Positions 4,701-60,440 of a stretch of DNA of 64,000 nucleotides are shown one piece after another. The DNA lies in the NCBI RefSeq assembly GCF_026151205.1, contig NC_087080.1, positions 8,955,720 through 9,019,719 on the forward strand, in the 5' to 3' direction. The position numbers and the translations under genes were made by a program. Under the pieces are notes generated by a model. That model was not told where the DNA came from and ran no database searches. It saw only the letters and a program-made list of their open reading frames with translations. The DNA comes from Bolinopsis microptera. Its lineage: Eukaryota > Ctenophora > Tentaculata > Lobata > Bolinopsidae. Positions within the stretch are counted from its first letter, which is position 1, and each line of letters opens with the position of its first letter.

Positions 4701-4903
4701 TTTGACCGGTTTGTGACTTCTAGTAACTTCTAGTACCGCTCACTTCAAAATTACATAATTACACTTCATAAGGGGGGGGGGGATCATGTTTTTTTGTCCG
4801 TTTTTGTCCGTTTGGCAGCTATATTTTCAAAACGGACAAAAAATAAAGCGGACAAAAACGGACAAAAACGGACAAAAAATAACAAAAATTGAAATAACAT
4901 TTA

Positions 4904-4935
<32 letters not shown>

Positions 4936-7900
4936 CTCCTCCTCCTCCTCCTCCTCCTCCTCCTCCTCCTCCTCCTCCTCCTCCTCCTCCTCCTCCTTCT
5001 CCTCCTCCTCCTCCTCCTTCTCCTCCTCCTCCTCCTCCTCCTCCTCGTCCTTAGTCCTCTTTATCAGTCCTCATCAGTCCTCATCAGTCCTCCTCCTCCC
5101 CAGTCCTCCTTTTGGGGCCTTTTCCTGGGTCCTCCTCCTCTTGGGTCCTCCTCCTCATCCTTCTCCTTAGTCCTCCTCCTCCTCAGTCCTCCTCTTGAGT
5201 CCTTCTTCTCCTCCTCCTCCTATTCATTCCTCCTCCTCAGTTCTCCTTCTCAGTCTCACTCCTCCTTCTCAGTCCTCCTCCTCCTCTTCTTCCTGGTTCC
5301 TCCTCTTGGGTCCTCCTTCTCCTCCTCAGTCCTCCTCCTCTTCCTCCTCTTCCTGGGTCCTCCTGATCCTCCTCAGTCTTCTTCCTCCTTCTACTCCTCA
5401 GTCCTCCTCCTGCTCAATCCTCCTCTTCCTCCTAAGTCCTCCCCTCCTCAGTCCTCCTAAGTCCTCCCCTTCTCAGTCCTCCTCCTCATCAGTCCTCTTC
5501 ACCAGTCCTCCTCCTCAGTCCTCTTTATCCTCATCCTTTATCTCCTTTCTCCTCCTCATCCTCCTCATACACCTCCTTCTCCTCATCAGTCCTCCTCCTC
5601 ACTCCTCAGTCCTTCTCCTCCTCCTCCTCCTCCTCGTCCTTAGTCCTCTTTATCAGTCCTCATCAGTCCTCATCGGTCCTCCTCCTCCCCAGTCCTCCTC
5701 ATGGGGCCTTTTCCTGGGTCCTCCTCCTCTTGGGTCCTCCTCCTCTTGAGTCCTTCTTCTCCTCCTCCTATTCATTCCTCCTCCTCAGTTCTCCTTCTCA
5801 GTCTCACTCCTCCTCAGCCCCCCTCCTCTCCCTCCTCAGTCCCCCTCCTCAGTCCCCCCTCCTCCTTTTCCTCTCTTTAATCTCTCAATAATTTGTTCAA
5901 TTTATAATTATTGTTGGTGTTATTGTTAACATAATTTATTGTTATATACTAAAATGTTTTTAAGCGCATTTGAGTCTGACTCAAAATGTGCTCAAGAATC
6001 TTTGTGTTTAACAAAGTTTTACTCTCCAGTAATAAAACTTTTCATCCCTTTTTATGTTATTAAAAAATGTGTAGACTATTCTTTGTGCCTAATTGAAGAT
6101 TAAAAGTTTGAGAAAGGACCATGGTCATTAACCGGGCTACCCATTTCTGCAGATAGCCTGTTACAAATTGTGGAGAAAATTTAAATCAAAAGTTACAATT
6201 TTTGTCCGTTTTTGTCCGTTTTTGTCCGTTTGGCAGCTATATTTTCAAAACGGACAAAAATTAACGGACAAAAACGGACAAAAACGGACAAAAAATAACA
6301 TGATCCCCCCCCCCCCTTCATAATCACATTATTATATATGTTCCCAGCATGGCCCCCACCCTATACTACAGAGTCTGGTTCAGCATTTTAGCTTGTTTCG
6401 TGTTGGATGAGAGTATGTCTTTGAATTTACTGTACCGCGATGAAATAGCCTACCAGGTAATAATTAAATAATAGTGATCAATAGTTAATAGTTATACATA
6501 TTTTGATGTACTATTACTAATTCCTTGAATAGTGTTTGTACTCTAGTAGCTGAGTGTATATTTTGTTTATTTGAAAACTTAAGCAGCTTAGTTCTCTCCT
6601 TTTAAATGATAAAGCCACATGTTATATCTGTAGTATACTGTTATCATAGTACTATATCCTGACAATAAATTCTCTTAGTACTATCTTATCTCCTATAAAA
6701 AAACTTTGACAATGCATCACAGCAAGATACTATGTCATCATAGTTGTTGAGTGCCAATGGATCTACCAAAATAGGTTTATATTATCTCTTACTATGTGAC
6801 ACTTCTTATCTGTCTCCGACTTATCAGATAGTAAGATATCTCTGACTGACCAGTGACCAATGATTATTGCCTTTAAAGGCTATTAATTTGTCGAGTCAAT
6901 ACCCACCGTTCTTAACTGAATAACTGTAGAGTTGTTAACTGAATAACTGGTCAGGAGATACTGACTACATTATGTAACGTCTGAAACCAAGGTCGGGTAG
7001 TAGGAGCAGCCCTTCAAATGTCATACTCCGCAAGCAACCCTTCATTTTGTAATATCGCCAGCATCAGTTTCATGTAGTCTCAGCTTGTTCGCCCTCATTG
7101 TATAGTTGTGTCAAACCAATCTAATAACTTTAATGTACATGGTGAGGTAATTGCTTATTGACTACACAAGACAACTTTTAATATTTTCATTCTTAACATT
7201 CTTCATACTTTATGCAGATGATGCAAATATCATTATTAAAGGTTCCAATGTCCAAGAACTAATGCTAAGGGTCAACCAATTAACGGAAACATTATCACGG
7301 TGGGTTAATAGCAACGGATTAGCACTAAATCTAAAAAAGACGTGTTATATGATTTTCTCTAAAAAGCGCATAGAACCATCATTGATTAAAGTACAAATAG
7401 AAAATACAGTATTAGAACGTAAAACTGAAGCCCGGTTTCTTGGTGTAATTGTAGATGAAAAGCTTAACTGGAGTAACCACATAAAAGCACTGAGGAGCAA
7501 GATGTCAAGATTTATTGGGGTGATGTACAGGATAAAACATAAATTGCCAATGAAGGCCCGTTTACAGATTTTCCAAAGTTTTGTTCAGTCCCATTTAAAC
7601 TTCTGCTCACTTGTATGGGGATTTGCTTCAAAATCTCTTATAGAATCTCTTTTTGCTAAACAAAAACGAGGTATGAGGGCAGTTATGGCTGGAAATGTGA
7701 ACTACTACTACAAGGACGGAAAACTGCCAGAGCACACAAAACTAGCATTTAAAGAACACGAGGTCTAAACCGTTCAAGGGGTTATCGTTAACAACGCACT
7801 TATTTTACTGCACAAAGTTCGAAATATGTCTAGTTTGTTACCTAAATCGATTTCAGAACTTTTCCCTCCTAACACACCCAAACAAGGAACGACACACGAA

Positions 7901-20511: not shown

Positions 20512-22248
20512 ATGAATGATTCATTGGAAACATTTTTCGGCAAATTATTGATGGAATGTGATACAAAATGTACAAACTGTTCAGATCTTAAAACTCGCGT
20601 GAAGTTTCTGGAGCGTAAAGTGTTCATTTTAGAGGAAATTGTTCAAACCTCACAAACAATAGCAGAGATTAATGAAACTATTTCGCCTCAAAGTGAAAAC
20701 CACTCAATTGCTCAATACAAGTGTTTCGATGTATCAGTGCAAACGGACTCCAGCAACAAGAACATTCAGTATGACAAGGAATGTGAGGTACCAGAATCAT
20801 TTTTGTTGATTGATGATGATGGCTATGTAGAAGCACCTCTATCAATTATTTCTAACAACATAGACATTTCAACCAGCGAGATTACAGACACTGGCTCAGT
20901 TATTCCAAGAAGCGGTGAATGTTATGCAGGATTAGATTTAACACCTGTGTCAAGTTCAGACCTTACTACAGACTATGAAATCCCTGATATCGCCATCACA
21001 CCTGTTGAACTTATTGAACAGGCACCATTCAGCAAATTTTCTATTGAAATCTTATTTGAGGAATTAAAGTTCAGCCACCACTTCCATAACAGGAAATCAG
21101 TCTACTTTGGGGAACATCCTTACGTGTACAGTGGAGGAATGCATGACCCAAAGAAGATCCCCCAGGGATCTTACATGGCAAGTATATGTTCCTTTCTAGA
21201 TGAGCTATTCCCAGAATACAACTACAACAGTGTTCTGGTCAATCTCTATGAATCTGGAGAGGAACATATGCCTGCTCATAGTGACAATGAAGAATTTATT
21301 GAAGAAAATTCGTACATTGTAACAGTGTCCCTTGGTGCTTCCAGGATGATGCAGTTGACTGAAATCAAAACAGGACAAGTGGTGACTTCCCTAATTTTAG
21401 AACATGGAGATGTATGTCTTATGTCCAAAAAGTCCCAACATCAATTCAACCATGAACTATGTCCCGATCCACTATGCACAGACAAAAGGATCAGTTTAAC
21501 TTTTAGACTTATCAAACCAGTTGTCTGCAGTCAACCAAGAAAATCACCTTCTACAGCTAGTGGATATGTACCCTATAACGAAAGTGAATTTGAAGTCCAC
21601 CATTCCAAAGTTAAGAGTTCAGCCAAGTCAACTGCAGCGCCTCCTTCACCTGAACAGACCCCAAGTGACCTGCCAACTGATACCATCTACATCAGTAGCA
21701 GTATGTTCAGGGACCTCAACGGAACTTTACTAAGTTCGAGGAAACAGAAAGCTAAGGTGTTCTTCTACCCTGGAGCGAACTCTTCTCAAATGTTAAATAG
21801 GCTTTTACATGATGAGGAGTTCAAAAAACTGGACAAAAAGGGTGTAAAGCGTGTTTTCATACTAACAGGCACAAACTACGTAGATTCTGTCTGTAACAAT
21901 TATATTTCTATGAAAAATGCAACAGAAGGAATTGATCAAATACTTAGTATACTTTGGGGAATGTTTATTGGAGCAAGAATTTCAGTTATAAATATTTTAC
22001 CTAGGAACAGTTATAACAAAAATGAAGTTATCGACGAATTAAATAGGTTTATTTCTAACACCTGCTCTAGTCATGGGTTAAATTATATAGATTTAGAACG
22101 TACCAATAGACTATTTACCAGCCGAGTTACTGGAGTAAGGAAACAGGTATTTTTCAAAAAAGGAATAGATAATGTTCACCTTAATATCAAGGGAATCGCC
22201 AGGTTGGCGAAACATTTAAAATATTTATCCCACAATGAGCAAACTTAG
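20512..22248 (+). CDS. LINE A ORF1 protein: AlkB-like 2OG-Fe(II) dioxygenase plus SGNH-like domain
   Basis: 578 residues. N-terminus: a Cys pair region (CDTKCTNC) and a short coiled coil (about 24-50), then an acidic low-complexity linker. Residues about 170-340 form an AlkB-type domain: NLYESG, the metal-binding H256-x-D258, a strand ending VSLGASR, LEHGDV, distal H314, and R326/R332 within RISLTFR, the positions that bind iron and 2-oxoglutarate in AlkB enzymes. After a Ser/Pro linker, residues about 390-570 resemble the SGNH hydrolase domain of CR1 ORF1. Block I reads S395-S396-S397 where GDS is expected, N455 sits in GTN, and D553-x-x-H556 is present. Likely role: RNA-binding partner of ORF2 with oxidative demethylase activity. 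This activity is inferred from motifs. The frame has no stops. Confidence 0.85.
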   Translation: MNDSLETFFGKLLMECDTKCTNCSDLKTRVKFLERKVFILEEIVQTSQTIAEINETISPQSENHSIAQYKCFDVSVQTDSSNKNIQYDKECEVPESFLLIDDDGYVEAPLSIISNNIDISTSEITDTGSVIPRSGECYAGLDLTPVSSSDLTTDYEIPDIAITPVELIEQAPFSKFSIEILFEELKFSHHFHNRKSVYFGEHPYVYSGGMHDPKKIPQGSYMASICSFLDELFPEYNYNSVLVNLYESGEEHMPAHSDNEEFIEENSYIVTVSLGASRMMQLTEIKTGQVVTSLILEHGDVCLMSKKSQHQFNHELCPDPLCTDKRISLTFRLIKPVVCSQPRKSPSTASGYVPYNESEFEVHHSKVKSSAKSTAAPPSPEQTPSDLPTDTIYISSSMFRDLNGTLLSSRKQKAKVFFYPGANSSQMLNRLLHDEEFKKLDKKGVKRVFILTGTNYVDSVCNNYISMKNATEGIDQILSILWGMFIGARISVINILPRNSYNKNEVIDELNRFISNTCSSHGLNYIDLERTNRLFTSRVTGVRKQVFFKKGIDNVHLNIKGIARLAKHLKYLSHNEQT

Positions 22249-22425
22249 TCTCTCCATTCAGATTGTAGAAAGTTCTTTAGTTAAATGAGTATTTGATACT
22301 TTTATCAAAGAATCACATTTTAAATTATTAAGTCACAAATAAATCAGCATGACATAAAACTAAATGTCATGAATTTTATTTAAATTGCTTGAAGAAGAAA
22401 CGTATAGATTTGTCCTCCTTTTAAC

Positions 22426-24746
22426 TTTATTATTACCACATTCGTACCTCAATAAACGATAATCTCTCTCTTGGTCTATGTAATATACAGGGTGGCCTGA
22501 CTAATCTGGCAAAAACTCTCGAACTACAGGAGTTAATATTTCGCGAAAAGCTTGACATAATTGGAATTAATGAGACAAACCTTAAATCTGATATAGACAC
22601 TAGTACACTTAACTTCCCCTTAAACTTTGATTTTATAAGGTGTGATAGACCTAACGATAGAGGAAGAGGAGGGTGTGGTATATTGATCAACCAAAATGTA
22701 AACCACAAATTACTCAATTTAGATATAACTTACTCTGATATTTCTAAAATCGAAGCTATATGGATACAACTCAAGGATGCCAATCTTTACATTTGCTGCT
22801 TCTACAGATCACAAAACTTTTGTCACCTAGATACTTTCCTTGATTATATGACTGAATGTATGATGAAACTTCAAGGTAAGAAAGTAATATGGATTGGCGA
22901 TGTTAATGTTAACCAAAACTCTTTATCTGATCTAGATTATAAAAAGTTAGATATAACAATGAAGCTCTTTGGAATGATACAGACTGTTACAGGAATTACT
23001 AGAGTTGCAAACTTAGATGGTAGGATAACGCAGAGCACAATAGATGTTGTCATGACTAACTGTTACTCTAATTTCATAGAGTGTAAAGTACTTGATGATA
23101 GAATAGGAGATCACCAAGCTCTCAAATGTGTTCTCGACTTTAAAGTAAGTAAAGCTAGTAAATTCCAGAAGGTTCTTATCAGAGACCACTCCTTAAACAA
23201 TCTGAAAGCCTTAAGCTATTTTCTTGGATCCTGCAGTAACTACAGTAATATTTTAAGCTGTACTAATGTAGACCATGCCCTAGATGGACTTAATCATCAC
23301 ATCCAGGAATCGTATGATAATTACTGTCCACCTAAACAGATAAAATGTAATAGTAACTTTCTCTGTAATCCCTCTAAAGAACTGTTGGCGGAAATACGGA
23401 AGAAGAAGATGCTTTTCAGAAAGTATAAAAAGTGTTTAGGACAATTAAACAAATTCAAGTGTAATTGTATTAATGGAATATGTAAATGCAGAAAAAGTGA
23501 ACTACATAAGAAATGCTCTACTTCGTGGGATAACTATCGTCCCCAAAGAAACTATGTGACAAAATTATCCAAAGAATCACAGAAGAAACCTGCAATTGTA
23601 TTCTTAGATATCAAAAAGGCCTTTGACACAGTAAGCCATAATATTTTATTAAAAAAACTTAAGTATTATGGAGTTGATGGCTTTGTCATAAAGTGGTTCA
23701 AAAGCTACCTTGGGGACAGAAAGCAACACACCAAAATACGTGGTAATGTAAGCACATCACTCCCTGTTAAAACAGGTGTGCCACAGGGTAGCATATTAGG
23801 ACCAATTCTATTTAGTTTATTTATAAATGATCTCAGTAGAAATTGCACACAATCTACTGTTTACTTATTTGCAGATGATAGTGCACTATATTTTGATAAC
23901 ATTTCCCGAGGCATATATGAGAATGTAATTAAGGATATGAAAATTGTGTATGAATGGCTTAGAATCAACAAGCTGAGACTAAATGCTTCAAAATCTTCAT
24001 TCATTGTATTTGATAGATCACCTAATCTGGACACGTTGTCAATCCCTCTGGATTTGGAAAAAGAATGCCTATTTATAGAAGAAACTAAATCTCAAAAATA
24101 TTTAGGTCTCATGATAGACAATTTATTGAACTTTCAAGACCATATTGATTATGTGAAATCAAAAATTGCTAAAAGAATAGGGGCATTATACAGGTCGAAA
24201 AATCTTCTTCCACTGAAATATAGAAAAATGTTTGTAAATGCTCTTATGCTCCCCCAATTTGACTACCTGGATATAATATGGTGTAGGGCTGCCAAAACCA
24301 AACTTAATTCTCTTGATATATTATACAAGAAAGTAGCAAAAATTGCTCTGGATGTTCATTGGCAGGAACCATCAGTAAATGTATATCGAAATATGAAGTG
24401 GTTACCCTTACACTTAAGAAGACAACTCCATCTATCAACGTATATGTATAAAATTCTTAATGAGGCTGCACCATCATCATTCACAGATAAATTTTCTTAT
24501 GTATCCGGAGGATCACGTGATGCTGAGAGGTGCAACCTTTATATTCACAAATCCAGAACACACAAAACCTTTACATATTTAGGTGCAAAATGTTGGAATA
24601 CAATTCCAGAGAACATAAGGACTATAGAATGTAGTGTAAAATTCTCACAATGTATGAAATCTAAATTTATGTCAGATGTAATTCAAGGAGTCTCATCCTA
24701 TGAAATAAACAATAGTTTCGACTATTTCTACACTCTAGCTATGTGA
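22426..24746 (+). CDS. LINE A ORF2: APE-type endonuclease and reverse transcriptase with internal in-frame deletion
   Basis: The frame is open from a stop near 22423, with no ATG before the endonuclease. APE-like endonuclease motifs follow: CNIQG, INETN, RGGCGI, GDVNV, STIDVVMTN and GDHQAL. A Cys-rich linker (CNCINGICKC) leads to YRPQRNYV, which jumps directly to RT motif A (FLDIKKAFDT). Motif B (GVPQGSILGP), motif C (FADDS) and a CR1/L2-type C-terminal region then follow. The RT fingers that normally lie between NYRP and motif A, about 100 residues or more, are absent without loss of frame. The protein should therefore be catalytically dead as an RT, yet the frame remains open, which suggests a young deletion. 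Confidence 0.85.
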
Positions 24747-29501: not shown

Positions 29502-36607
<7,106 letters not shown>

Positions 36608-47344: not shown

Positions 47345-47762
47345 AGACAAATCTCTTAAACTTAAGAATCATGTTCTAGGAATATTCATTGACTTAAGCA
47401 AAGCCTTTGACACTATCGACCATTCAACACTACTTATAAAATTAGAGGGCTGTGGAATTAGAGGAGTAGCAAATAGCCTTATAAAAAGCTACTTAACAAA
47501 TAGATTACAATACACCGAAGTTGTGGGAGAAAAATCAGACACCCTATCTATTCAATTTGGTGTCCCGCAGGGTTCAATACTTGGACCTCTCCTATTTCTC
47601 CTCTACATGAACGACATCTCAAACAGTTCTTAACTAGGATCATTTGTTACATTTGCTGATGATACCAATATATTTGTTGTAGGAAAAACAAAACGTGAGG
47701 CCTATGAACGTGGAAATAAGCTTTTTTCATCATTGCAGTCTTACATGCGAGCAAATAAGTTT
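47345..47762 (+). pseudogene. LINE RT palm fragment with in-frame stop
   Basis: Motif A FIDLSKAFDTIDH, motif B FGVPQGSILGPLLFLLYMND, a TAA, then motif C FADDTNIFV. Closest to the LINE B type RT. Both ends are missing and the fragment runs into repeat copy 2 at 47785. Confidence 0.85.
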
Positions 47763-47784
47763 TTTGAAAGAAAAATTTTTTTTG

Positions 47785-48050
47785 AAAGAAAAATTTTTAT
47801 TTACCACAAAACAATCAATACATAATGTTATATTCATAAATAAATTCAAATTTCAATTTCAAACACATAATATACAGTACGCCGCGCACACAGCCACAAT
47901 TTAAAATTGTTCAGAAATTCGTAGGTCAGCTGTAGGCGCCGCGCACATGATCTATTTAATTGTTATCTTACAATACATGTCAATACATATCTTACAATTA
48001 CATGTCACATTTCTTAATTTCTAGAGCCAAAATTTCAGAAGCAAAATAAT
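47785..48050. repeat. Diverged dispersed repeat, copy 2
   Basis: Same phrases as 45900-46150, with insertions; see that entry. Confidence 0.75.
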
Positions 48051-49628
48051 TTAAAAGATATTTCTGTCGTTCACGCAGTACAGGCCGTGAACACTGCGAC
48101 CTAATTAATATAATAATGGAGAGATTCCAAAAAACCGCGCGCTCGTTATTTGTGATTAAATTGAGTGCGCGCCACTGTCAACCGCAGTACCGCTCAAGCA
48201 TGAAGTACTAAGCGGTACGCAGTTTTGCGTGAGGCGTAGACATTTGTCATGTAGCACACGTTTCATTCAACTAATCCATTATGTGACATGTAATTATATT
48301 AAAGCAAAAAGAATATTAATTTTAGTAATAATTGACGTAAACATATGTGTTTAAATAACATCTATAATCTAGCGAGTTACTAATACCATTTGTTTGTATT
48401 AATGATTATATATGTTTACACTAGCCTATATTATGATGGAGATATACATTGCATTATAATATAATTGCTCCAATATTCAACACTGCTAAACAACAAATAC
48501 CTACTCGCCCATCGATGAAGCAGTCGCCAAAACAAAGCTCAAAGTTAATATATCCTCGTACTTCGTTTTGGAAACTGTAGAATTCCAATAAATAATTAGT
48601 GTTTCAATTGTGTATTCGATGGGCAAGCACTCGCCACTCGAGGCCAAGACAAACGGCACCAGCTCCGCCCTGCAACCATGAAGTAATGTAAGCAGTAAGG
48701 CGGGGCGGTGGTGTGCGCCGTTTATACGGCCCACAGCACGAGACATTTTGAGCTCCAAGACTTTAGACTATAAACGTCCCGAATTAAACATAGCGACTTA
48801 CCATCGTCAGCCGTCAAAAATTTAGAATTTGTATGTTATAAACTCTACACCTGCTATCAGTATAACATGTAATTTAGTTTGTTATTGGCTAAATTTTCAA
48901 CTCGATTAAGCGATGCAGACGGATGAACTAGGCTTCTCCTCCGTCAAAAACACAATGAGAGGGGGTTGTGGAAGGACACGAACACTATTCGTTAACTCGT
49001 ACCCCGGGTACCCCCTAGAACCGTGTCCCATCAGAGAGAGCCCATCACCCGTCAGATCGAAAACAGTGTTTTAGTTTTGATATATGCTGTACCAATTACA
49101 ATAAATGGTAAGCCAAGGCTGACGTTGGTAGCAAAATATAAAGTGACACGTCACAACAAAATAACCACTACACACTACACACTATATATACGCTATAACT
49201 ATTGTACACAGTACACAGTATAACTTAAATATAAAATATAAACAAGTTACAAGAGACAAAAGAGTTTACAGAAGAGTTTTACATCGGCTCAGCACCGCCA
49301 GGACATTGGCTATACACGTGGGTCAATTAGTTTGATTTGGTATGGCTCGACCGGGAAAGTGGTCGAAATTAGTGCTCTTAATGAGTCATCACTGTCGTCT
49401 GAATATTAGAGCGGGAACTTCCCAAGTTTCGGCCGACAACGCGCACAGCATCGGCGCGCAATGCTATGCGCGTGCCCATATTACTGTGTCATTCGGCGGT
49501 TGCGCTCAGCGTAACTGGGAATGAGTTGTATGTTGTTTACCTAAATTCAAGCATGGTATTCATAGATAAGCTTGTCAGTCAGTAAGTGCTTAAGTGGGAA
49601 TAACGGGCAAATGAATATCACTTCATAA
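48051..49628. other. Intergenic stretch before LINE B, no gene seen
   Basis: GC content is locally higher (48600-49000 and 49400-49500). Short frames only, none with a recognisable domain. It includes the 3' end of LINE B, for which no clear tail repeat was found. Confidence 0.5.
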
Positions 49629-52600
49629 TCAGAATTCAGTGAAATTTCTGTCACACCACTCAGTTCCATACCGGTTTTGAGCTCTTAGAAGTGACTGTTT
49701 AAGTAAATTCTTGACAGATCCGCATGTGGAGGTGAAATTTAACGGGCCAACTTTACGGAATTCGTTCCAAAGCCATGCAGATTTATAAATAAATTGATTA
49801 GCTGGAGAGGGTGTAATGAACAGATTATCTTTCCTATTTGATATGTTGAATAAGTAGTATAACGAAATTGGTACTCGTGACTTAATGATCTTGAAAAGTT
49901 CCATTAAACAACGGTATCGGTACAGGTTCTCTGTAACAAGTAATTCATGTTTTGTGAATAGAGGCTTAGTGGACTCTTTAACATAGAATTCAGATCCTAG
50001 ACGTTGAGAATTAATTGGTCTTGCTCTAGCACATGTCTTGAATTTGTCTACATAAGCTTCATAGTCTCCAAATAGAATCCTGATACACTTCTTTTGAGTA
50101 ATAAATAGCGGTTTTAACTGATTATTGGGAATACCTCCCCAGACAGAAATAGCATAACCTAGGTGTGATTCAAAGAGGGAATGATATATTTGCTTATATA
50201 GTGATTCTGGTAAGCATTTCTTAATACGGTAGATACGTCCACAAGCACTTCTTAGTTTCTTGTTGAGGGATGATATATGTGGTTTCCAGCTCAATTTATC
50301 GTCCATGATTACTCCGAGAAATTTTGTCTGACTTACACGTTTAATTATTTTGTTATTAATGGACAAGTTTTGGCTATCTATATCGGCATCTAATTCGTTA
50401 TTATTACGTTTAGAGGGAGAAAAATACATGTAACAACACTTCTTTACATTAATGTGCAGTAGGTTAACTCCCATATACTTGTTTACGGCCTGTAGTACTT
50501 CATTAGCCAATTCGTATACTTTATTTCTCGAATCGGCAGCGACAAATATATTAGTATCGTCTGCAAATAAGACAAATTTACCCTTTTTAGTTATATTGCA
50601 TATGTCATTGATGTACAGTAGGAAAAGTAGAGGTCCTAATACACTACCCTGAGGGACCCCGAATTCAACCGGTAATTCATCAGATTTGGTATCCAAAACG
50701 TTTACAAATTGTTTCCTATTAGACAAATAACTAGAGATAAGATTCAGAGCATTTCCTCTTATGCCATAGTTGTTTAACTTTGTAGTTAGTTTACAGTGGT
50801 CTAGAGTGTCAAAGGCTTTTGAGAGATCGATAAAGACCCCTAGGACATGTTGCTTTTTACTAATTAACGATTCTATATGTTCTACAGAGTAGTTCAGTGC
50901 ATGGCTGGTGGAGTGTCCTTTTCTAAAGCCGAACTGGTTTTCATGTATTATACCCTTGGAAGTAAGGAAACTATATAGCCGCTTATATATTAACTTTTCT
51001 AGAATTTTCCCGAATACAGGTAGAGTTGATACTGGTCTATAGTTTTCTAAAAGCTGTTCATCTTCTTTTTTGTAAATGGGGCTGATTCTCCCAGTTTTTA
51101 ATTCATCGGGAAAGTGGCCTTCTTGCATGCATTTATTAAAGTATCTAGCTAAGTACGGTGCAGTAATTTGACACGACTTCTTGATCACATGAATAGGTAT
51201 GTCACTAGATTTCCCGTTTTTTAGTTCGTTTATGATCTCTTTAATCTCAATACAGTCACAATCACAAAGAAAAATACTGGACGTAACTGATGTGGGCAGG
51301 TAATCAGTAAATGACGGCAGGGAATTTATTCTTAAGAAGTCACCAGAGTAAGCTTCGTTCAAGTTAGCTGCAATAGAGGCAAAGTATTTATTGAACTCAT
51401 TTGCAATTACACGCCGATTAATCACACGCTCGTTATTTATCACAAAGTTAGGTTTAATCTCACGTCTCTTCTTACCACGCAGTTCATTAATTATCTGCCA
51501 AGTTTTCTTACTATCTCCAGCGCATTCTGTAATCTTAACACCATGATACTTACGTTTTGCAGAATTAATAAGGTGGTTTAATAACTTCCGGTGTGCCTTA
51601 AATTCTTCATGACGTGTTACTTTATTTGTACAATTAAAACAAAGGGTAAGACAGTCTGCATGGTTGGTTGAAGAGGCGTTGAGGCATTTCTTCTTAACTG
51701 CCTTTTTATACAGGTCATAAAGCTCATGTTTTCTATTTATAGAGGCAATCAGGCCTGATGTAATCCATGGATTATTCTTAGCAGTACGTTTAGAACACTT
51801 AGGCTGGTTTAGTTTACATGCACTGTCTAGTTGATGATTAAATACAGTGAAAAAATTACTGAAGTCTTCTGGTGGATCACTAGTTAATTCATTGTCTAGT
51901 ACTTCCACAAATTTGTCCACATTTTTTGCACAGTAGTCATAGTACTGGAAATAGTTTTGTTCATGAACCTCAGTACTGACTAGGGGTGAGTTGAATATGT
52001 TAAATACAGCATGGTGGTGACTGATGCAGGTACTAATTGTTCCAGAGCAGATAGAGTTCTCTATGTTGTTGGTGAGTATGTTGTCAATGCATGATTCGTT
52101 ACATCCTGGTTTATGATGCGTGGAAGTAGAAATAAGTGGTGATAAACCTAGACCTAGAATAAGGTTTTCAAAGTCTTGAACAAGTTTACTGTTTTCATCA
52201 TGGAGATTAATGTTAAAGTCACCTAGTATGTAAACATTCTTTTTTGGGCATGATTCAATAATTTTTCTAAGTTCATTTAGTGCCTCTGAGGAGTCCCCAC
52301 TAGGAGGACGGTACAGTACTCCTACATGTACAGGTTCATCATGTTGAATAGTAATAAATAGGGTTTCAAGATTTTTGGTTACCCATGATAATTCTTCGTT
52401 TACAACTCCGTTAAGTTCGTCCTTTAAGTACAATGCTACTCCACTTCCCTTTGCTTTGTTGATATGTTTGTCCTGATAGAAACAATTGTACCCCTCTAGA
52501 TGGTAGACAGTGCTTTCCTCTATTCCAATATTGGTTTCAGCAAGTCCAATAATTTTAAATTTTTCGGCTAATCGGTTTAGTTCCATGCTAAAGGCATCAA

Positions 52601-52973
52601 AATTTGTTTTATTACCATCTATGTTCTGGAAAATCGTGGAGCAGTTGCTTGCAAAACACGGTTTGATATGTGTGTTAAAGTCCTTAATTGTATAGGATCT
52701 ACAGTTTTCCAAAGCATCGGACATCTTTTGGATACATGGGTCACAGTCATTAACTTCAGGATCGGTCATTACTTTAAAAGGATTATATTTTTTAGATATG
52801 GAATGTTTACACTCGTTGCAGTAAAAGTTGTCATTGATAACTTGCGCTTTGGAAGGATTAAAACATTTGGCATGGAGAATACTATTGCAGTTAAAACATT
52901 CAAAGTGGGGAAGCCCTAATCCAATATTCTTCAGACAGTGACTACAAATTTCCTTTTGAACACGATTAACCAT
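49629..52973 (-). CDS. LINE B ORF2: PHD finger, APE endonuclease, reverse transcriptase (1114 residues)
   Basis: Residues 10-55 form a PHD-type finger, ligands C10, C13, C26, C29, H34, C37, C52, C55 (C4HC3). About 110-345 is an APE endonuclease with FQNIDG, LAETN, GSGVALY, LGDFNINL, CIDNILTNN and SHHHAV. A linker with further Cys residues follows. The RT spans about 600-850: NYRPVSTLPVFGKILE, FGFRKGHST, motif A FIDLSKAFDT, motif B FGVPQGSVLGP and motif C FADD (803-806). A CR1-type C-terminal domain ends the protein. The protein nicks target DNA and reverse-transcribes the element RNA. PHD fingers read histone tails, so this one may guide target choice (inference). No stops or frameshifts. Confidence 0.93.
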   Translation of the reverse strand: MVNRVQKEICSHCLKNIGLGLPHFECFNCNSILHAKCFNPSKAQVINDNFYCNECKHSISKKYNPFKVMTDPEVNDCDPCIQKMSDALENCRSYTIKDFNTHIKPCFASNCSTIFQNIDGNKTNFDAFSMELNRLAEKFKIIGLAETNIGIEESTVYHLEGYNCFYQDKHINKAKGSGVALYLKDELNGVVNEELSWVTKNLETLFITIQHDEPVHVGVLYRPPSGDSSEALNELRKIIESCPKKNVYILGDFNINLHDENSKLVQDFENLILGLGLSPLISTSTHHKPGCNESCIDNILTNNIENSICSGTISTCISHHHAVFNIFNSPLVSTEVHEQNYFQYYDYCAKNVDKFVEVLDNELTSDPPEDFSNFFTVFNHQLDSACKLNQPKCSKRTAKNNPWITSGLIASINRKHELYDLYKKAVKKKCLNASSTNHADCLTLCFNCTNKVTRHEEFKAHRKLLNHLINSAKRKYHGVKITECAGDSKKTWQIINELRGKKRREIKPNFVINNERVINRRVIANEFNKYFASIAANLNEAYSGDFLRINSLPSFTDYLPTSVTSSIFLCDCDCIEIKEIINELKNGKSSDIPIHVIKKSCQITAPYLARYFNKCMQEGHFPDELKTGRISPIYKKEDEQLLENYRPVSTLPVFGKILEKLIYKRLYSFLTSKGIIHENQFGFRKGHSTSHALNYSVEHIESLISKKQHVLGVFIDLSKAFDTLDHCKLTTKLNNYGIRGNALNLISSYLSNRKQFVNVLDTKSDELPVEFGVPQGSVLGPLLFLLYINDICNITKKGKFVLFADDTNIFVAADSRNKVYELANEVLQAVNKYMGVNLLHINVKKCCYMYFSPSKRNNNELDADIDSQNLSINNKIIKRVSQTKFLGVIMDDKLSWKPHISSLNKKLRSACGRIYRIKKCLPESLYKQIYHSLFESHLGYAISVWGGIPNNQLKPLFITQKKCIRILFGDYEAYVDKFKTCARARPINSQRLGSEFYVKESTKPLFTKHELLVTENLYRYRCLMELFKIIKSRVPISLYYLFNISNRKDNLFITPSPANQFIYKSAWLWNEFRKVGPLNFTSTCGSVKNLLKQSLLRAQNRYGTEWCDRNFTEF

Positions 52974-52978
52974 ACCTG

Positions 52979-54649
52979 TTAACCGTTCCGTCCCCTCCGC
53001 TGCAGTGCAGGCGGGCCACTAGCCACGTTGCTGTATAGCCGTCCATTGACTTTGCCGATGTGTTTTCTTCTGTCTTCTCCGCCATTTAACCTAATAAATA
53101 CAGATTGTTTAATGAGTCCAGCAAGGACTCTTGCCCCTAACTTGTTAAGATGAAGTGTATCAAGTCGACCATGTCTGTCGAATTGTTTCGACAGTTCGTC
53201 CGCAAGACCATAGTTGCTGGCAAACTGTTCGAAACCGTTAACACATACGACATCCTTACATGTAGGGAGCAGGTCGAAATGAATAAGTCTATTAAATACA
53301 TTAACTTTTACATTCAGCTCTAAGTCCTTAGTAGGCAGCAGTTTACAAACAAAAACAGCTCTAGTGCTGGGGCTAAGATTCTTAATTTGTTTAATTTTCA
53401 GCTTGAGTTTATTATAACAATCAGCAACATCATTCTCACAACTAATATCCGGCTGTCTCACGTCATTGATCCCACAGTGGAGCACCACATTGGCGTAACC
53501 CATGCAGGACACAGGGTTGATATCTTCAATTCTGGGAGCCCAGAACTTTTGACCTGGCATGAGTTCGCCAAAGGTACCCCTCTTGTCAGACCCAAAACGC
53601 AAGAAGCCTGTGTTTGAATCACCATGTAAGCTTGTGCAATTTTTATTTGTCCAGCTAACAGCACGAAAGGTCAGCGAGTACCTAATACCATCTGATATTG
53701 AGCCACGCTCAATCATATGACTGTAAACTTCTTGTGATCTACGGCTCATTATGTACAGGGAGCGATCATGACATTCAAGAGAGGATTCAGTTCTAGAGTC
53801 ACATTCAGTGAACTTGATTTTGCAGATCTGGCCGAGAGACAAAGTAAGTATTGATGATTCTGGATGGATGGTCACTTCACGGTCTGAATGGTTAGGCAGG
53901 TGACTATCAGAGCCATCATACTTGTTGATGAGACATGAATTGATAACCGGGGCCGTCAGGTGGGGCTGATCCGGGTAGCTCTTGTTAAAAAGTTCAGTTT
54001 GTACTTTGTTCATTTCATCAAATAATGGTTTGAGTTCCTCAGGAATTGGTGGCACATTTTCTGAAGATTTAGAACCCATGTAGTGGTAGGGGGTGCCAAA
54101 TGAAGTGACGGAGTGACCGTTCTCTTGTTTGAAAGAACATGACTGAAGAAAGGCAATAATTTTCTCAGATTCAGTAGTCAGAATGAAATCTGGCCTGGTT
54201 TCAGTTACTGGCACCTGATCATGTGGTAAGTGAGGGGTAGGTTGGTCAGGTTGTAGGGGAGAGGAGAGGAGAGGAGCCTGCACTGGAGGAGAGGGGTACT
54301 GGGCTACAGGTGGTGCTTTAGATTGAGGAGATGCTTTAGAATCCTGTATTTGACTGCTTAAGTTGTTAAGTTGAGTGGAATGCTCACTCAGTTCTTGTGA
54401 GACTCTCTCAAGTAGCTCATGAGTGGCAGTGCAAGCAGGTGTTTCAGATGCTGCAGTTTGATGCGACTGAAGCTGTGCAAGTTGCTGGTTCAGCTGATCG
54501 ATGCTGTTGGCTAGAGGGTCTGTGGCAGAGCTGGATGATGAGGACAGTGCTGCTTCTAACTTTTTCATTTGAGCCTGATGGGACTTCAACCCGTCTTCTT
54601 TAATCAGGAGATGTTGCAGGTGGAGATCAAAAGTCTGAAGACGTTCCAT
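52979..54649 (-). CDS. LINE B ORF1 protein: coiled coil, AlkB-like dioxygenase, SGNH esterase (556 residues)
   Basis: An N-terminal coiled coil and Gln/Ser-rich region (about 1-115) and a Pro-rich linker lead into an AlkB-type domain at about 165-335. It has NKYDGSDS, H254-x-D256, LTLSLG, SRRSQ, distal H311, and R323/R329 in RYSLTFR. An SGNH hydrolase follows at about 338-515 with GDS (S345), GIND (N395) and the D497-x-x-H500 dyad, all intact. A basic tail ends the protein. CR1 ORF1 esterases are known, whereas the dioxygenase is unexpected. It would be predicted to need Fe(II) and 2-oxoglutarate and to oxidise N-methyl groups on RNA or DNA; that substrate is inference. The first Met is used by default, because the frame is open for about 28 further codons upstream. 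Confidence 0.88.
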   Translation of the reverse strand: MERLQTFDLHLQHLLIKEDGLKSHQAQMKKLEAALSSSSSSATDPLANSIDQLNQQLAQLQSHQTAASETPACTATHELLERVSQELSEHSTQLNNLSSQIQDSKASPQSKAPPVAQYPSPPVQAPLLSSPLQPDQPTPHLPHDQVPVTETRPDFILTTESEKIIAFLQSCSFKQENGHSVTSFGTPYHYMGSKSSENVPPIPEELKPLFDEMNKVQTELFNKSYPDQPHLTAPVINSCLINKYDGSDSHLPNHSDREVTIHPESSILTLSLGQICKIKFTECDSRTESSLECHDRSLYIMSRRSQEVYSHMIERGSISDGIRYSLTFRAVSWTNKNCTSLHGDSNTGFLRFGSDKRGTFGELMPGQKFWAPRIEDINPVSCMGYANVVLHCGINDVRQPDISCENDVADCYNKLKLKIKQIKNLSPSTRAVFVCKLLPTKDLELNVKVNVFNRLIHFDLLPTCKDVVCVNGFEQFASNYGLADELSKQFDRHGRLDTLHLNKLGARVLAGLIKQSVFIRLNGGEDRRKHIGKVNGRLYSNVASGPPALQRRGRNG

Positions 54650-54744
54650 GTTGCTGTTGAGACTGGCTATTTGCTCGCAGAGTTTCTCACTGTCTACCGA
54701 GGCAAGCGATGCTGAGATTAGGCCTATGTTATTAAGATATAAAT

Positions 54745-55635
54745 ATGTCCAAGTGCTGCTACATACACTTCAAGCCTCCCATGAAAGGTTCTAAGTCAGA
54801 GACTCTATCAGATGATGAAGTAGGACTTACTATAGACAACTTTCCGATAAAAAAAGTTTCATCCACTAAATTCCTTGGAGTTATAATTGATGAAAACCTT
54901 TCATGGGAAGAACACATTAAAGCCCTTAAGCGAAATCTAAATCATTCCACTTCCACCTTATGTCGACTTCGCTGCTCCCTTCCAGAATTTTTACATCAAC
55001 AACTATACTATACCTTGTTTGAATCCCATCTCTCTTACTGTATATCTGTCTGGGGTGGGGCAGCGAAGCATCGTATAAGCTCTCTGTTTACCGCCCAGAA
55101 GTACTGTCTTAGGGTTATGTTCGGTGATAGGGAGGCTTTCCTTGATAAGTTTAAGACCTGTGCACGTACCAGACCAATAGGGCACCAAAGACTTAACAAC
55201 AAGTTTTTCATAAAAGAACATACTAAACCGCTATTCAAACATAATAATATCCTAGCTATCCAAAATCTCTATACATACCACTGTTACCTCGAGCTCTACA
55301 AGATAATGAAATTTCGTGCTCCAATATCCTTACATGAAGGCTACACATGCTCGACAAGGAAGCCGACCCTACTTATTTGTCAGGCTGACCCACCTGATAA
55401 CCATAATACAAGATCAACCAAAATTTTTAACATGATTACTCCAAAAATTAGAATGGATGACTTTACCATGAGTGTGATGTGTTTGCGGGGAAAGCTTAAA
55501 CGTGCACTATTAAATAATCAACACAGCCACGCCCCGCTTGATTGGACAATCAAAGATTTTGACTGCAACAATATTGTCTTCGAAAGATCACTACTTGCTG
55601 GTCACACACATGTCAGCGAAATTCCCCTAGTCTAG
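54745..55635 (+). pseudogene. 5'-truncated LINE RT C-terminal region, head-to-head with LINE B
   Basis: An intact 296-residue frame begins SKCCYIHFKPP and contains KFLGVIIDENLSW, ESHLSYCISVWGG, AQKYCLRVMFGD, FKTCARTRPI and a C-terminal tail. It aligns with LINE B ORF2 from just after motif C, but is clearly diverged, so it is a related family rather than the same copy. An aataaaataaaatga stretch follows at about 55687. Confidence 0.85.
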
Positions 55636-56315: not shown

Positions 56316-57497
56316 TCATTGAAAAATTTCTTGTTTCATTGAACGTTTAATACTTTTATTCAGTCTATCACGGCTATATCCTCTATCAATTAGAATTTTG
56401 GATATCTTGTGAAGATGGGAGGTAAAGATATCCAATCTAGTGCAAACATTACCATATCTAAGAACTTGACTTGAAAAAACGTTGTAGCCAACCTCGGTTG
56501 GGATGTTACTGTGAGGAAATGTAAGGGATACAACATGAAAATTAAAATCATCAGTTTTGTTATACACTGATATTTCTAGTCCTTCTGTGGAAATATTAAT
56601 ACTTAAATCAAGGTAGTTAATGATTTTATTATTAGAACCAGCTCGCTCCATTTCCAATGAATTAGGATAAATGTCTTTAATCAATTTATGAAAGTAAAGG
56701 TAGTTAATAATAGATAAATCGTCAACATATCGTTTATTATTGGATAATATCTTTGCTAATCCCATTTTCTTTTCCTGAAGTAAACGTTTCATATAATTAA
56801 ATTCCTTTTTGCCAACAGTTAGATCAGCTATAGGGGAACTTGAATTTCCACCCATAGGAATACCCTTGGTTTGTATGAATACAATCCCACCGAAGACAAC
56901 ATAAGTGTTATAAATAATAAATTTAACAGCTTCTTTTAGGTCATCTTGACTAAAGCAGGCATGAGAATCATATGTTTTATTGGAAAAGAAACATGTATTA
57001 CTATCTCTTTTAGAAATACAAATATATCTATTACGGTCTGAAAATATTAAATCAACAACTTCATTAATCATATTCTCTACTTCAATCAAGTCTAATCTGG
57101 TATAAAGAGTAGTAAAATCATATACTTGTATATTATAAACATCGCTATTTTTGATAGCTTCAAGGAATTCACTTGAGGAATTTATGCTCCAAAACATGTT
57201 AATACCGCTGTTGTTGTAGATTGCCTCGCAGTATTTCTTGAAGTATTTCCTCAAAAGTTTCAGACAACAGTTAACTTGGACGTTCAGTTGTTTCGTTACG
57301 CAAAAACGGGCACCTGCAATGAACCTCGCCTTGTAAGGGTTCTTATGAAGCTTAGGGTTCCAGAAGATGCGTGCTAGTCGCAAGTTTTTATCTTCAACTT
57401 GTACATTAAATCTCTCCTTTAGACTCTCAGATATTTTATTGACATAATGAGTCTCGTCTTCGCTACAGGGTGACAAGAAGTCCCTACTGCTACGTTA
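56316..57497 (-). CDS. Penelope-like element reverse transcriptase, 5'-truncated, no GIY-YIG domain
   Basis: Motifs on the minus strand: PKLHKNPYKARFI (RT2-type), YDFTTLYT (motif A Asp), GIPMGGNSSSPIADL (motif B), RYVDDLSI (motif C) and NYLDLSI (motif E). The typical PLE post-RT block DRGYSRDRLNKSIKR closes the protein. The frame then stops, so the GIY-YIG endonuclease of canonical Penelope elements is absent. At the 5' side the frame is open only to a TAA near 57498, so the N-terminus is lost. A 20-bp direct duplication (ttcttgtttcattgaa twice, 56304-56343) created the present stop, adding three residues to the original end. The first codon with start potential (57476) is a TTG, not an ATG. 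Confidence 0.88.
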
Positions 57498-58339: not shown

Positions 58340-58828
58340 TTGGTATTGAATGTTTTACTTGGAAGGCTATTGAAAAACACCACTATAAGGTCTCTAGAGA
58401 TTATAGGTTTAGACATGTGTCACAGCTGGGACAGGGACTACGCAGGTCAATATTTACATGCACATGTATATCCTCTTGAAATTTACTCCCGCAATCTTCG
58501 ACACCTCAGAATTGTACAAGATGCGTTTTGTTACATCAGCAAGATTGTATGTCCAGAACTGCTGGAGTTCAAATATGTTGATTTTGGTGCAGAAGATTTG
58601 GAATGTCTTGTCCTTAACAAGATGTTTAAAATAGAATTTGATAATTGTGTTGATTTACGGTCGATGGTTTACAGTTGTTCAAAACTAGAGCGGATTAATG
58701 AAATTGATTTCAAAGCAGTCAGGAGTCGTTTGTTGAATCAATATTGTTACGACGAGTGGATTGATTATTTTATGGAAATCTGCCCCTGTAAAACAGCTGA
58801 TGATGAAGATGACGAAGATGAGTCCTAA
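58340..58828 (+). pseudogene. C-terminal half of an F-box-family paralogue
   Basis: Reads LLGRLLKNTTIRSLEI, LRHLRIVQDAF, CPELLEFKYVDF, KLERINEIDF and MEICPCK, ending in an acidic Asp/Glu tail. These parallel the C-terminal third of the intact gene at 59202-60440 (LLARLLKNTSIRSLEI, LRYLRIEQDGF, CPQLLEFKHLDL, VIERINSIDV, LKEVCPC). The F-box and the middle of the protein are missing upstream, and no ATG starts the preserved frame. It is probably a truncated paralogue, unless an upstream exon exists that I cannot see. Confidence 0.75.
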
Positions 58829-59201
58829 CACAATAAAACTTGTCATACAGTTATACATTTTTAACTGATACCACTGTCGTGCATGCGCTTGAATATTAAG
58901 GTAAAATATTTTTCTTATTTTCTAGCATGATGCATGATTATTTGCTTTCGTCTCATTAGGAACCGGCTCGAAATGTATTGCCAATCCTTGATTACCAATT
59001 ATTTTGTTACCTGATAATACCATAAAAAGGTTTAAAAGTTTAAAAACTCATTTGTTCTCCAAATTCCAAATTGTTTTCATTTAATGCTATTCTTTTTAAA
59101 TTTTTGTTATATATAAAAGATTACATTCTCATAGGTTTATGAAGGTATTAAATCAAGATAGCTGATTGCACTGTACTCAATTCAAACCAATACATGTTAT
59201 A

Positions 59202-60440
59202 ATGGGAAAAGACAAGAGGAACAGAAAAATGAAGCACCATGCAAAGGTGGGAGAGTGGGTAAGATTTGAAAAGAGGCTTGAACGTCTCGTTGACATAAGG
59301 GAAGAATTCATAAAGCAACATCAGGTCACTCCCAAAGATCTGACTTATGAAACTAAACATCACCAAACTGCATACTATTCTGGTGTTCCTGAAGAGGTGA
59401 TGATGATGATTTTTGAATATTTGTCCTATTCGGATATTGTAACCATGTCAACAACATGTCGAACCATGGCCGAGCTTGTATACAGAAACTTTCTACCTTC
59501 AATTGTGCTTCCTCTTTCACCTTGCAATCTCACAAAACTTGGCTGGAGACGTATCTTGTCTCTGGTATCTACTTTCAACATCATGATCCTCGATCAGTGC
59601 AGAAATGGTGAATATTTAGCAAATATCAAAGAATTGAATCTCAGTAAACTACAGAAACTTGTTTTTGTTTTGTTTGAGTACAGCCCCGAGCACATATACC
59701 CTTATGTTCATATTCTTCCACCTCTGTATAAAGATGTCTTGAGCTATTATCTGTCCCAATCAAAACTGCTGACTCATCTTCATATTTCAATAGATAGATC
59801 TAGAAAAACGTTTGACATAATAGACATTATCGCTGATTCCTTGCCTTGTCTTTATAAAATTGTTCTTCAAGCAACTAATAACACAGATAATGCCTTTTGC
59901 AGCCCCATCGAGTGCCAACTTTCCGAGGAAATGAGAGAAGAATCCAGACAGTTAGAGAGTGACAAATCTTTCTTTACATTTAACAATTTGCTAGCGAGGC
60001 TACTCAAAAACACATCCATACGATCTCTCGAAATCATTAATCTGAAATTATATCAGAGATGGGAAAAGCGAAATCTATGTAATTACATTGAAATTGAATC
60101 AGCTAGCCTGCGATATCTTAGAATTGAACAAGATGGTTTCGGTAAAATTCTTGATATGGACTGTCCACAACTTCTGGAATTCAAGCATTTGGACCTGAAT
60201 TTTGGCAGGGAATTCACCTGTCTTTTACACGAAACCGAAGATGTGTTTGTCGGAGCTGGAGGTTACAATGTAATGCTACAGTGGTGTCCCGTTATCGAGC
60301 GTATCAACAGCATTGATGTAGCTTCACTACGGAATGGATTTAATGAAAGAAAGGAATACGAGTTAAGAGATATCAACGAATCTTGGGGGGATTTACTTAA
60401 GGAAGTCTGTCCTTGTGAACCTAATTCAGAATCAGAATAA
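59202..60440 (+). CDS. F-box protein with leucine-rich C-terminal region (412 residues, single exon)
   Basis: A basic N-terminus (GKDKRNRKMKHH) leads to an F-box at about 61-100 (GVPEEVMMMIFEYLSYSDIV ... TTCRTMAELV). A long helical/strand-rich region follows with LRR-like phrases (LKELNLSKLQKLVF, SLEIINLKL, LRYLRIEQDGF), ending in CPCEP and an acidic tail. F-box proteins link substrates to SKP1-CUL1 ubiquitin ligases, with the C-terminal region as the likely substrate reader. The ATG at 59202 is chosen as the first Met; a two-codon uORF (ATG TTA TAA at 59194) precedes it. No introns are seen, which fits a lineage-expanded or retro-derived family. The substrate is unknown. Confidence 0.8.
   Translation: MGKDKRNRKMKHHAKVGEWVRFEKRLERLVDIREEFIKQHQVTPKDLTYETKHHQTAYYSGVPEEVMMMIFEYLSYSDIVTMSTTCRTMAELVYRNFLPSIVLPLSPCNLTKLGWRRILSLVSTFNIMILDQCRNGEYLANIKELNLSKLQKLVFVLFEYSPEHIYPYVHILPPLYKDVLSYYLSQSKLLTHLHISIDRSRKTFDIIDIIADSLPCLYKIVLQATNNTDNAFCSPIECQLSEEMREESRQLESDKSFFTFNNLLARLLKNTSIRSLEIINLKLYQRWEKRNLCNYIEIESASLRYLRIEQDGFGKILDMDCPQLLEFKHLDLNFGREFTCLLHETEDVFVGAGGYNVMLQWCPVIERINSIDVASLRNGFNERKEYELRDINESWGDLLKEVCPCEPNSESE

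Follow-up and report, generated by a model that had tools for sequence, protein, structure and literature searches.

An AlkB dioxygenase joined to an SGNH esterase in the ORF1 protein of ctenophore LINEs

Introduction

The subject of this report is a long interspersed nuclear element (LINE) in a 64,000-nucleotide stretch of the Bolinopsis microptera genome (the window; contig NC_087080.1, positions 8,955,720 to 9,019,719), whose first open reading frame (ORF1) encodes an AlkB dioxygenase fused to an SGNH esterase. The closest described elements are the CR1/L2 LINEs with a type IV ORF1, exemplified by zebrafish ZfL2-1. According to the available portions of papers on them (PMC3905857, PMC4120745), these elements resemble the one in the window in placing an SGNH esterase after a coiled coil in ORF1 and in encoding an APE endonuclease and a reverse transcriptase (RT) in ORF2. 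The ORF1 types described in those portions lack AlkB and have PHD fingers in other subtypes, whereas both AlkB and PHD are additions here, and the element therefore matches none of the subtypes covered there. Metcalfe and Casane recovered esterase ORF1s from two vertebrate groups only among 448 elements (PMC4120745), and the accessible part of their text does not contain the words 'AlkB', 'ctenophore' or 'Mnemiopsis'. Schneider et al. recorded transposon esterases in chordates, cnidarians and sponges (PMC3905857), again in a portion of text free of the word 'AlkB'.

The nearest precedent for the dioxygenase is a Ty3/Gypsy element of Phalaenopsis orchids (PMC9289625), likewise a retrotransposon with an AlkB protein whose 2-oxoglutarate (2OG) cofactor residues are intact. 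As far as the available excerpt describes it, the orchid element differs in being a long terminal repeat (LTR) element that carries an ALKBH5-like AlkB, active in vitro on N6-methyladenosine (m6A), in an additional ORF; the excerpt does not mention an esterase fusion. In plant RNA viruses and giant viruses, AlkB likewise resides in selfish RNA or DNA genomes, and the viral domains are good fold matches to the one reported here, but the titles of their structures give no SGNH or PHD ORF1 context. Esterase ORF1s are already described, and so are plant retrotransposons and viruses with AlkB; for AlkB inside an animal LINE's RNA-packaging protein, no description seems to exist within the literature searched. 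That literature, which did not reach Iyer et al. 2016 (the likeliest source) or Kapitonov and Jurka 2003, yielded no description of an AlkB LINE, in keeping with the initial annotation, which did not know the fusion as a LINE architecture. The portions seen of PMC5408684, PMC8141815, PMC12859917, PMC9921365 and PMC11294593 contain no such element; those of papers on Hydra, a tubeworm and krill refer to AlkB as host genes or in passing only, and papers on mitochondrial unidentified reading frames were unhelpful.

ORF1 contains AlkB and SGNH domains

ORF1 lies on the minus strand at 52979-54649, begins with ATG and encodes 556 amino acids; the plus strand is interrupted by stops over the same interval. 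The AlkB dioxygenase domain spans residues 141-333 (53651..54229) and is followed by the SGNH esterase domain at residues 335-521 (53087..53647). A helical or coiled-coil region is predicted upstream of both, at residues 2-104 (54338..54646), from the lower-confidence secondary structure of an AlphaFold 2 model, so that the esterase sits C-terminal to the coiled coil as in type IV ORF1 proteins.

Searched singly against Pfam, the window ORF1 returned no AlkB match and a sub-threshold GDSL match (E 0.12), and a first comparison with the PDB gave a hint of ALKBH2 (E 0.028). Because the single sequence lacks a Pfam AlkB match, the assignment depends on relatives, profile and predicted fold. A protein database search produced 118 matches, 112 with a precomputed PF13532 domain and 10 with PF13472; an organism name was present on 11 of them, in every case the ctenophore Mnemiopsis leidyi. 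We aligned the window ORF1 with 77 of these matches, chosen by hand and mostly omitting fragments. Despite a mean column identity of 27% across the entire 78-protein alignment, H254, D256, E258, H311, S325, T327, R329, S345, N346, G361 and N395 are invariant. R323 is conserved in 77 proteins, N242 in 76 and Y244 in 68 (otherwise nine Phe and one Leu), and the SGNH residues D497 (76/76) and H500 (77/77) are constant wherever the position is present. The domain thus displays the HxD...H iron triad and the RxxxxxR and N-x-Y residues for 2OG, and the esterase its Ser, Gly, Asn and Asp-x-x-His blocks together with an SGNH fold. The initial annotation had numbered H254, D256, H311, R323, R329, S345, N395, D497 and H500 exactly as they are found.

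Among the best 60 of 82 structure matches, the profile built from this alignment hit ALKBH2 (E 4.9e-14), ALKBH3 (1e-11) and ALKBH8 (8.8e-10). The best of several SGNH-type proteins had 1.4e-4 and the best of the PHD-finger proteins 0.0025; the LINE ORF1 esterase 4c1b, which we take to be ZfL2-1, was a weak match (0.034), and unrelated coiled coils occur in the same table with E values between 6e-4 and 0.04. A double-stranded beta-helix is predicted for the AlkB part, with ALKBH2 and ALKBH3 as the nearest solved structures. ALKBH2 and ALKBH3 are thereby closest to the element AlkBs in both fold and profile among the matches listed, and share with them an HxDxE motif, in which E258, the acid at His+4, aligns with the HxDDE of ALKBH2. 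The initial annotation had tied its AlkB call to a profile match and to this fold: the profile match failed for the lone ORF1 and emerged through its relatives, and the fold is the one predicted. Taken together, these data make the identity of both domains nearly certain.

The fusion is dispersed through the genome and under purifying selection

We searched the B. microptera genome itself (264.65 Mb in 232 contigs) and obtained 78 scored matches to the family, dispersed through it, of which 74 are free of internal stops. Twenty loci were hand-picked from this list for reading. Each has an ORF2 downstream of ORF1, whether whole, shortened or broken, and 13 combine an ORF1 of 672-746 amino acids with an ORF2 of more than 1000. 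Full-length ORF1 proteins of the relatives possess an extra Cys4-His-Cys3 PHD-like region. The pattern is visible in the database protein P0002, for which Pfam PHD scored below the cut-off (E 0.0036) when 17 sequences, relatives and window proteins, were run singly. It is present in 14 of the 18 loci admitted by our script's motif filter and accompanied by an ORF2 of more than 1000 amino acids in 12; loci L036 and L037 fell outside this filter (L037 outside that of another script as well), and L037 is for this reason the thirteenth long ORF1/ORF2 locus but not among the 12. A full-length ORF1 protein is Gag-like and runs from the PHD-like finger through the coiled coil and the AlkB dioxygenase to the SGNH esterase.

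These copies bear directly on whether the ORF could be a chance frame, or a cellular AlkB gene that merely adjoins a LINE. The missing Pfam match of the single sequence is the only point we found in favour of this explanation. Near-invariant catalytic residues across 78 aligned proteins rule out a chance ORF, and a host gene is rejected by the scattered genome copies, by PF13532 in 112 of the 118 database matches, by ORF2 downstream in the 20 loci, and by the separation of the element AlkBs from three host ALKBH2/3 genes in the best tree (see below). The probability left to this explanation is negligible.

Pairwise comparisons showed that the AlkB–SGNH ORF1 is under purifying selection. The ratio of nonsynonymous to synonymous divergence (dN/dS, NG86) in AlkB is 0.09 for L021/L022, a pair with little divergence, 0.19 for L021/L027, 0.08 for L036/L037 and 0.11 for L038/L040, the last value being rough since dS is 1.4. 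Nine pairs were compared in all, and in the remaining five the synonymous divergence of AlkB is saturated. The corresponding SGNH ratios are 0.27, 0.31, 0.10 and 0.11, and RT ratios are 0.00, 0.06 and 0.05 in three of the four pairs, those possessing ORF2. With many open copies and selection of this kind, the AlkB–SGNH fusion proposed for this LINE ORF1 by the initial annotation is borne out.

Synonymous divergence also changes sharply within elements. L021 and L027 are 92% identical from the middle of ORF1 through ORF2, and upstream of this segment they have no blastn match and their N-terminal dS is saturated. Between L038 and L040, dS is 0.05 in the PHD region, 0.64 in the coiled coil, 1.40 in AlkB, 0.60 in SGNH, 0.15 in the endonuclease and 0.56 in RT. 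Such jumps within ORFs indicate that LINE families have exchanged sequence, by recombination or by template switching, in agreement with the reticulate evolution of ORF1 described for LINEs in the available part of PMC4120745.

The window copy is a 5′-truncated LINE

The LINE copy in the window covers 6973 bp of the minus strand (47766..54738), as defined by its alignment to L023 and L024. It breaks off 5′ at 54738, where blastn against family copies shows six others running on (L003-L008, the same loci as L021-L026). Its ORF1 lacks about the first 179 residues relative to the 730-amino-acid ORF1 of L021, so the truncation has removed the PHD-bearing N terminus. The ORF at 52979..54649 reported by the initial annotation is real, but the truncation and the absent N terminus had been missed. 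By inference, this copy is probably a truncated insert that was dead on arrival.

ORF2 (49629..52973, minus strand) starts 5 nt past the ORF1 stop and encodes 1114 amino acids. On the same strand it contains an N-terminal PHD/C1-like zinc finger (52809..52958; Pfam C1_1 E 9e-4 and PHD E 0.015, both below cut-off), an APE-type endonuclease (52005..52625; PF14529 E 3e-8, PF03372 E 2.8e-5) and a reverse transcriptase (50307..51071; PF00078, RVT_1, E 2.3e-38). The 3′ end (47753..47788, minus strand) is a terminal tandem repeat of two units of about 18 nt with no poly(A), and alignment to other copies stops inside it, at 47766. The family shows the hallmarks of a LINE: an ORF1 followed by an endonuclease–RT ORF2, the lack of LTRs, 5′ truncation to varying extents and a 3′ end of short repeats. 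Its esterase and PHD fingers, together with the APE endonuclease and the tandem repeat at the 3′ end, hint that it may belong to the CR1/L2 clade (Jockey superfamily). Clear target-site duplications were not found among 15 copies, which showed common words of only 6-8 nt, mostly A/T-rich, and none in three; for L022-L024 the 3′ bound in this comparison was the end of the alignment rather than of the element.

Proposed role of the AlkB domain

A seemingly intact enzyme of a kind that removes methyl groups from RNA or DNA, fused to an esterase, suggests that these elements bring their own tool for template repair or against silencing. For AlkB, the most likely activity is that of an Fe(II)/2OG dealkylase of the ALKBH2/ALKBH3 kind. 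In LINEs generally, ORF2p carries out target-primed reverse transcription, and the methylated bases 1-methyladenosine (m1A) and 3-methylcytidine (m3C) prevent base pairing; an AlkB domain within the protein that coats the RNA could thus clear the template ahead of this step. ORF1p would multimerize on element RNA, a step implied by its coiled coil and by what ORF1p is known to do in LINEs, and AlkB would strip m1A and m3C adducts, which block pairing and stop RT, from that RNA and perhaps from single-stranded cDNA. The ribonucleoprotein would then arrive at the genome, where ORF2p would reverse transcribe the cleaned template, while the SGNH domain, by analogy with the ZfL2-1 esterase, would probably serve membrane targeting or the removal of acyl groups. 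We give this template-cleaning role an even chance. If it is true, retrotransposition would be able to repair or erase modifications on its own template, and the family would allow an arms race over RNA and DNA modification, fought by transposons and their host, to be tested in an animal.

The same domain could instead remove m6A from element RNA, so that YTH readers cannot destabilize or sequester it. The genome encodes MT-A70 and YTH domains, which leaves room for such a role. However, ALKBH2, ALKBH3 and ALKBH8 are the nearest profile matches, with no ALKBH5 or FTO among the best 60 of 82. The invariant E258 at His+4, matching the HxDDE of ALKBH2, favours repair of the m1A/m3C type, and its position presumably corresponds to D135 of AlkB. 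An acid occupies this position in all 78 proteins, whereas the AlkB solved with m6A DNA is, by its structure title, a D135I/E136H mutant (4nig). The in vitro activity of the orchid Gypsy AlkB (PMC9289625) speaks for m6A removal by a retrotransposon-borne domain, yet these comparisons lower m6A as the sole reading, which we regard as credible but unlikely. Removal of m1A and m3C appears likelier than m6A evasion, a lean rather than proof, and of the two roles offered by the initial annotation, repair of alkylated RNA fares better than protection from host methylation.

A role on the DNA side is in our estimate rather improbable; instead of RNA, AlkB would then repair or demethylate cDNA, single-stranded target DNA or 6-methyladenine where the element inserts. 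Relatives of the ALKBH2/3 type act on DNA, as titles of their structures state, and AlkB also occurs in a Helitron of the same genome; Helitrons have no RNA intermediate. Against this, the LINE AlkB is located in the RNA-packaging ORF1p and not in ORF2p. It is more improbable still that AlkB has been retained purely as a nucleic-acid-binding fold. The available portion of PMC3905857 does describe RepBase esterase-type ORF1 proteins without structural RNA-binding domains, but iron and 2OG residues that are almost invariant at so low a mean identity form a pattern that points to catalysis.

AlkB and SGNH domains in other mobile elements

A PF13532 search of the genome gave at least 151 matches, 150 of 587 candidates having been scored. 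One lies in the window, where a second, diverged LINE encodes an AlkB–SGNH ORF1 of 578 amino acids on the plus strand (20512..22248; PF13532 E 7.4e-21, residues 195-332); its SGNH match, PF13472 at residues 419-561, has E 2.6e-5 and 25.2 bits, below the 32.9 cut-off. Part of its ORF2 follows on the same strand (22683..24746), comprising an endonuclease remnant (PF14529 E 0.005, below cut-off) and RT (PF00078 E 3.6e-30). The two window elements are 34% identical in AlkB over 96 amino acids and 33% in RT over 254. By eye, SGNH block I of the second element (20512-24746, plus strand) reads SSS rather than GDS, and its RT ORF seems internally shortened. The ORF1 of locus L047 is 97% identical to this second ORF1.

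Five further small stretches comprised four more AlkB–SGNH proteins, in which SGNH was recognized by eye and by alignment, and one AlkB with no visible SGNH. In addition, a long open frame in L041 (2883-9500) encodes SGNH (8.3e-6, below cut-off) and then AlkB (4.6e-21) upstream of Helitron_like_N (3.2e-22). Shortly before this frame, in a segment set off by a stop, stands a 2A-like GDVETNPGP peptide. The SGNH–AlkB part recurs in six loci including L041, within open frames of 2300-3388 amino acids; the matched pieces are 38-100% identical, a stop interrupts one of them, and the Helitron domain was read in L041 only. The iron and 2OG residues and the His+4 acid are also found in the second LINE group and the Helitron. 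Three other loci (L042, L043 and L044) are likely a host ALKBH2 gene and two ALKBH3-like genes, and apart from these, every PF13532 stretch that we read lies within an element-like ORF. PF13532 matches in this genome are therefore often transposon ORFs and not host genes, a caution for annotation.

Origin of the element AlkB domains

We analysed the relationships of 62 AlkB domains: 27 from elements, 3 from host genes and 32 chosen from 120 listed of 1816 database matches. LINE and Helitron AlkBs share one branch (support 98/97), together with P0204, which was first labelled cellular and reads by its sequence as a LINE fragment. The Helitron AlkB branch is long. In a quick tree with P0204 relabelled and L041, L046 and P0209 removed, the LINE AlkBs form one side of a branch with SH-aLRT 100. 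On the best tree, the three host ALKBH2/3 genes fall outside the branch that the element AlkBs form by themselves. L046, whose AlkB is in a long ORF with no SGNH visible by eye, shares a long branch with P0209 away from the LINEs and is probably a separate capture, perhaps by another element.

Placing the LINE AlkBs with the single host ALKBH2 gene, as would be expected of a recent capture, was rejected (approximately unbiased (AU) test, p 0.0035), although this test is weak because the constraint splits ALKBH2 from its orthologues. In fairer tests, joining the element AlkBs to the whole ALKBH2 group (six rows) or to the ALKBH3 group (three rows) was not rejected (p 0.318 and 0.411, respectively), with groups that were defined after the first tree was seen. 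It may thus be that the element domains arose long ago from ALKBH2 or ALKBH3, and a single AlkB capture followed by spread is the simplest reading of the branch shared by LINEs and the Helitron. We advance more tentatively, as somewhat less than an even prospect, that AlkB and SGNH are a travelling accessory pair of ctenophore selfish DNA, captured once in the distant past, perhaps from an ALKBH2/3-type gene, spread among LINE lineages and to Helitrons, and kept to shield single-stranded intermediates (LINE RNA and Helitron single-stranded DNA) from alkylation or to reverse nucleic-acid methylation with which the host defends itself against transposons.

Other features of the window

Several other RT or RT-tail ORFs in the window belong, by eye, to other LINEs, at 54745-55635 (plus strand), 30182-31210 (minus strand) and 31722-34736 (plus strand), the first of which directly adjoins the place where the main element is cut short at its 5′ end. 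An RT-like ORF at 56316-57476 (minus strand) is, by eye, presumably from a Penelope-like element. Positions 4001-6000 show strong strand asymmetry (GC skew -0.475, AT skew -0.316), with a C/T-rich plus strand. At 58340-60440 (plus strand), two ORFs of 162 and 424 amino acids look by eye like related proteins of the F-box/leucine-rich repeat type.
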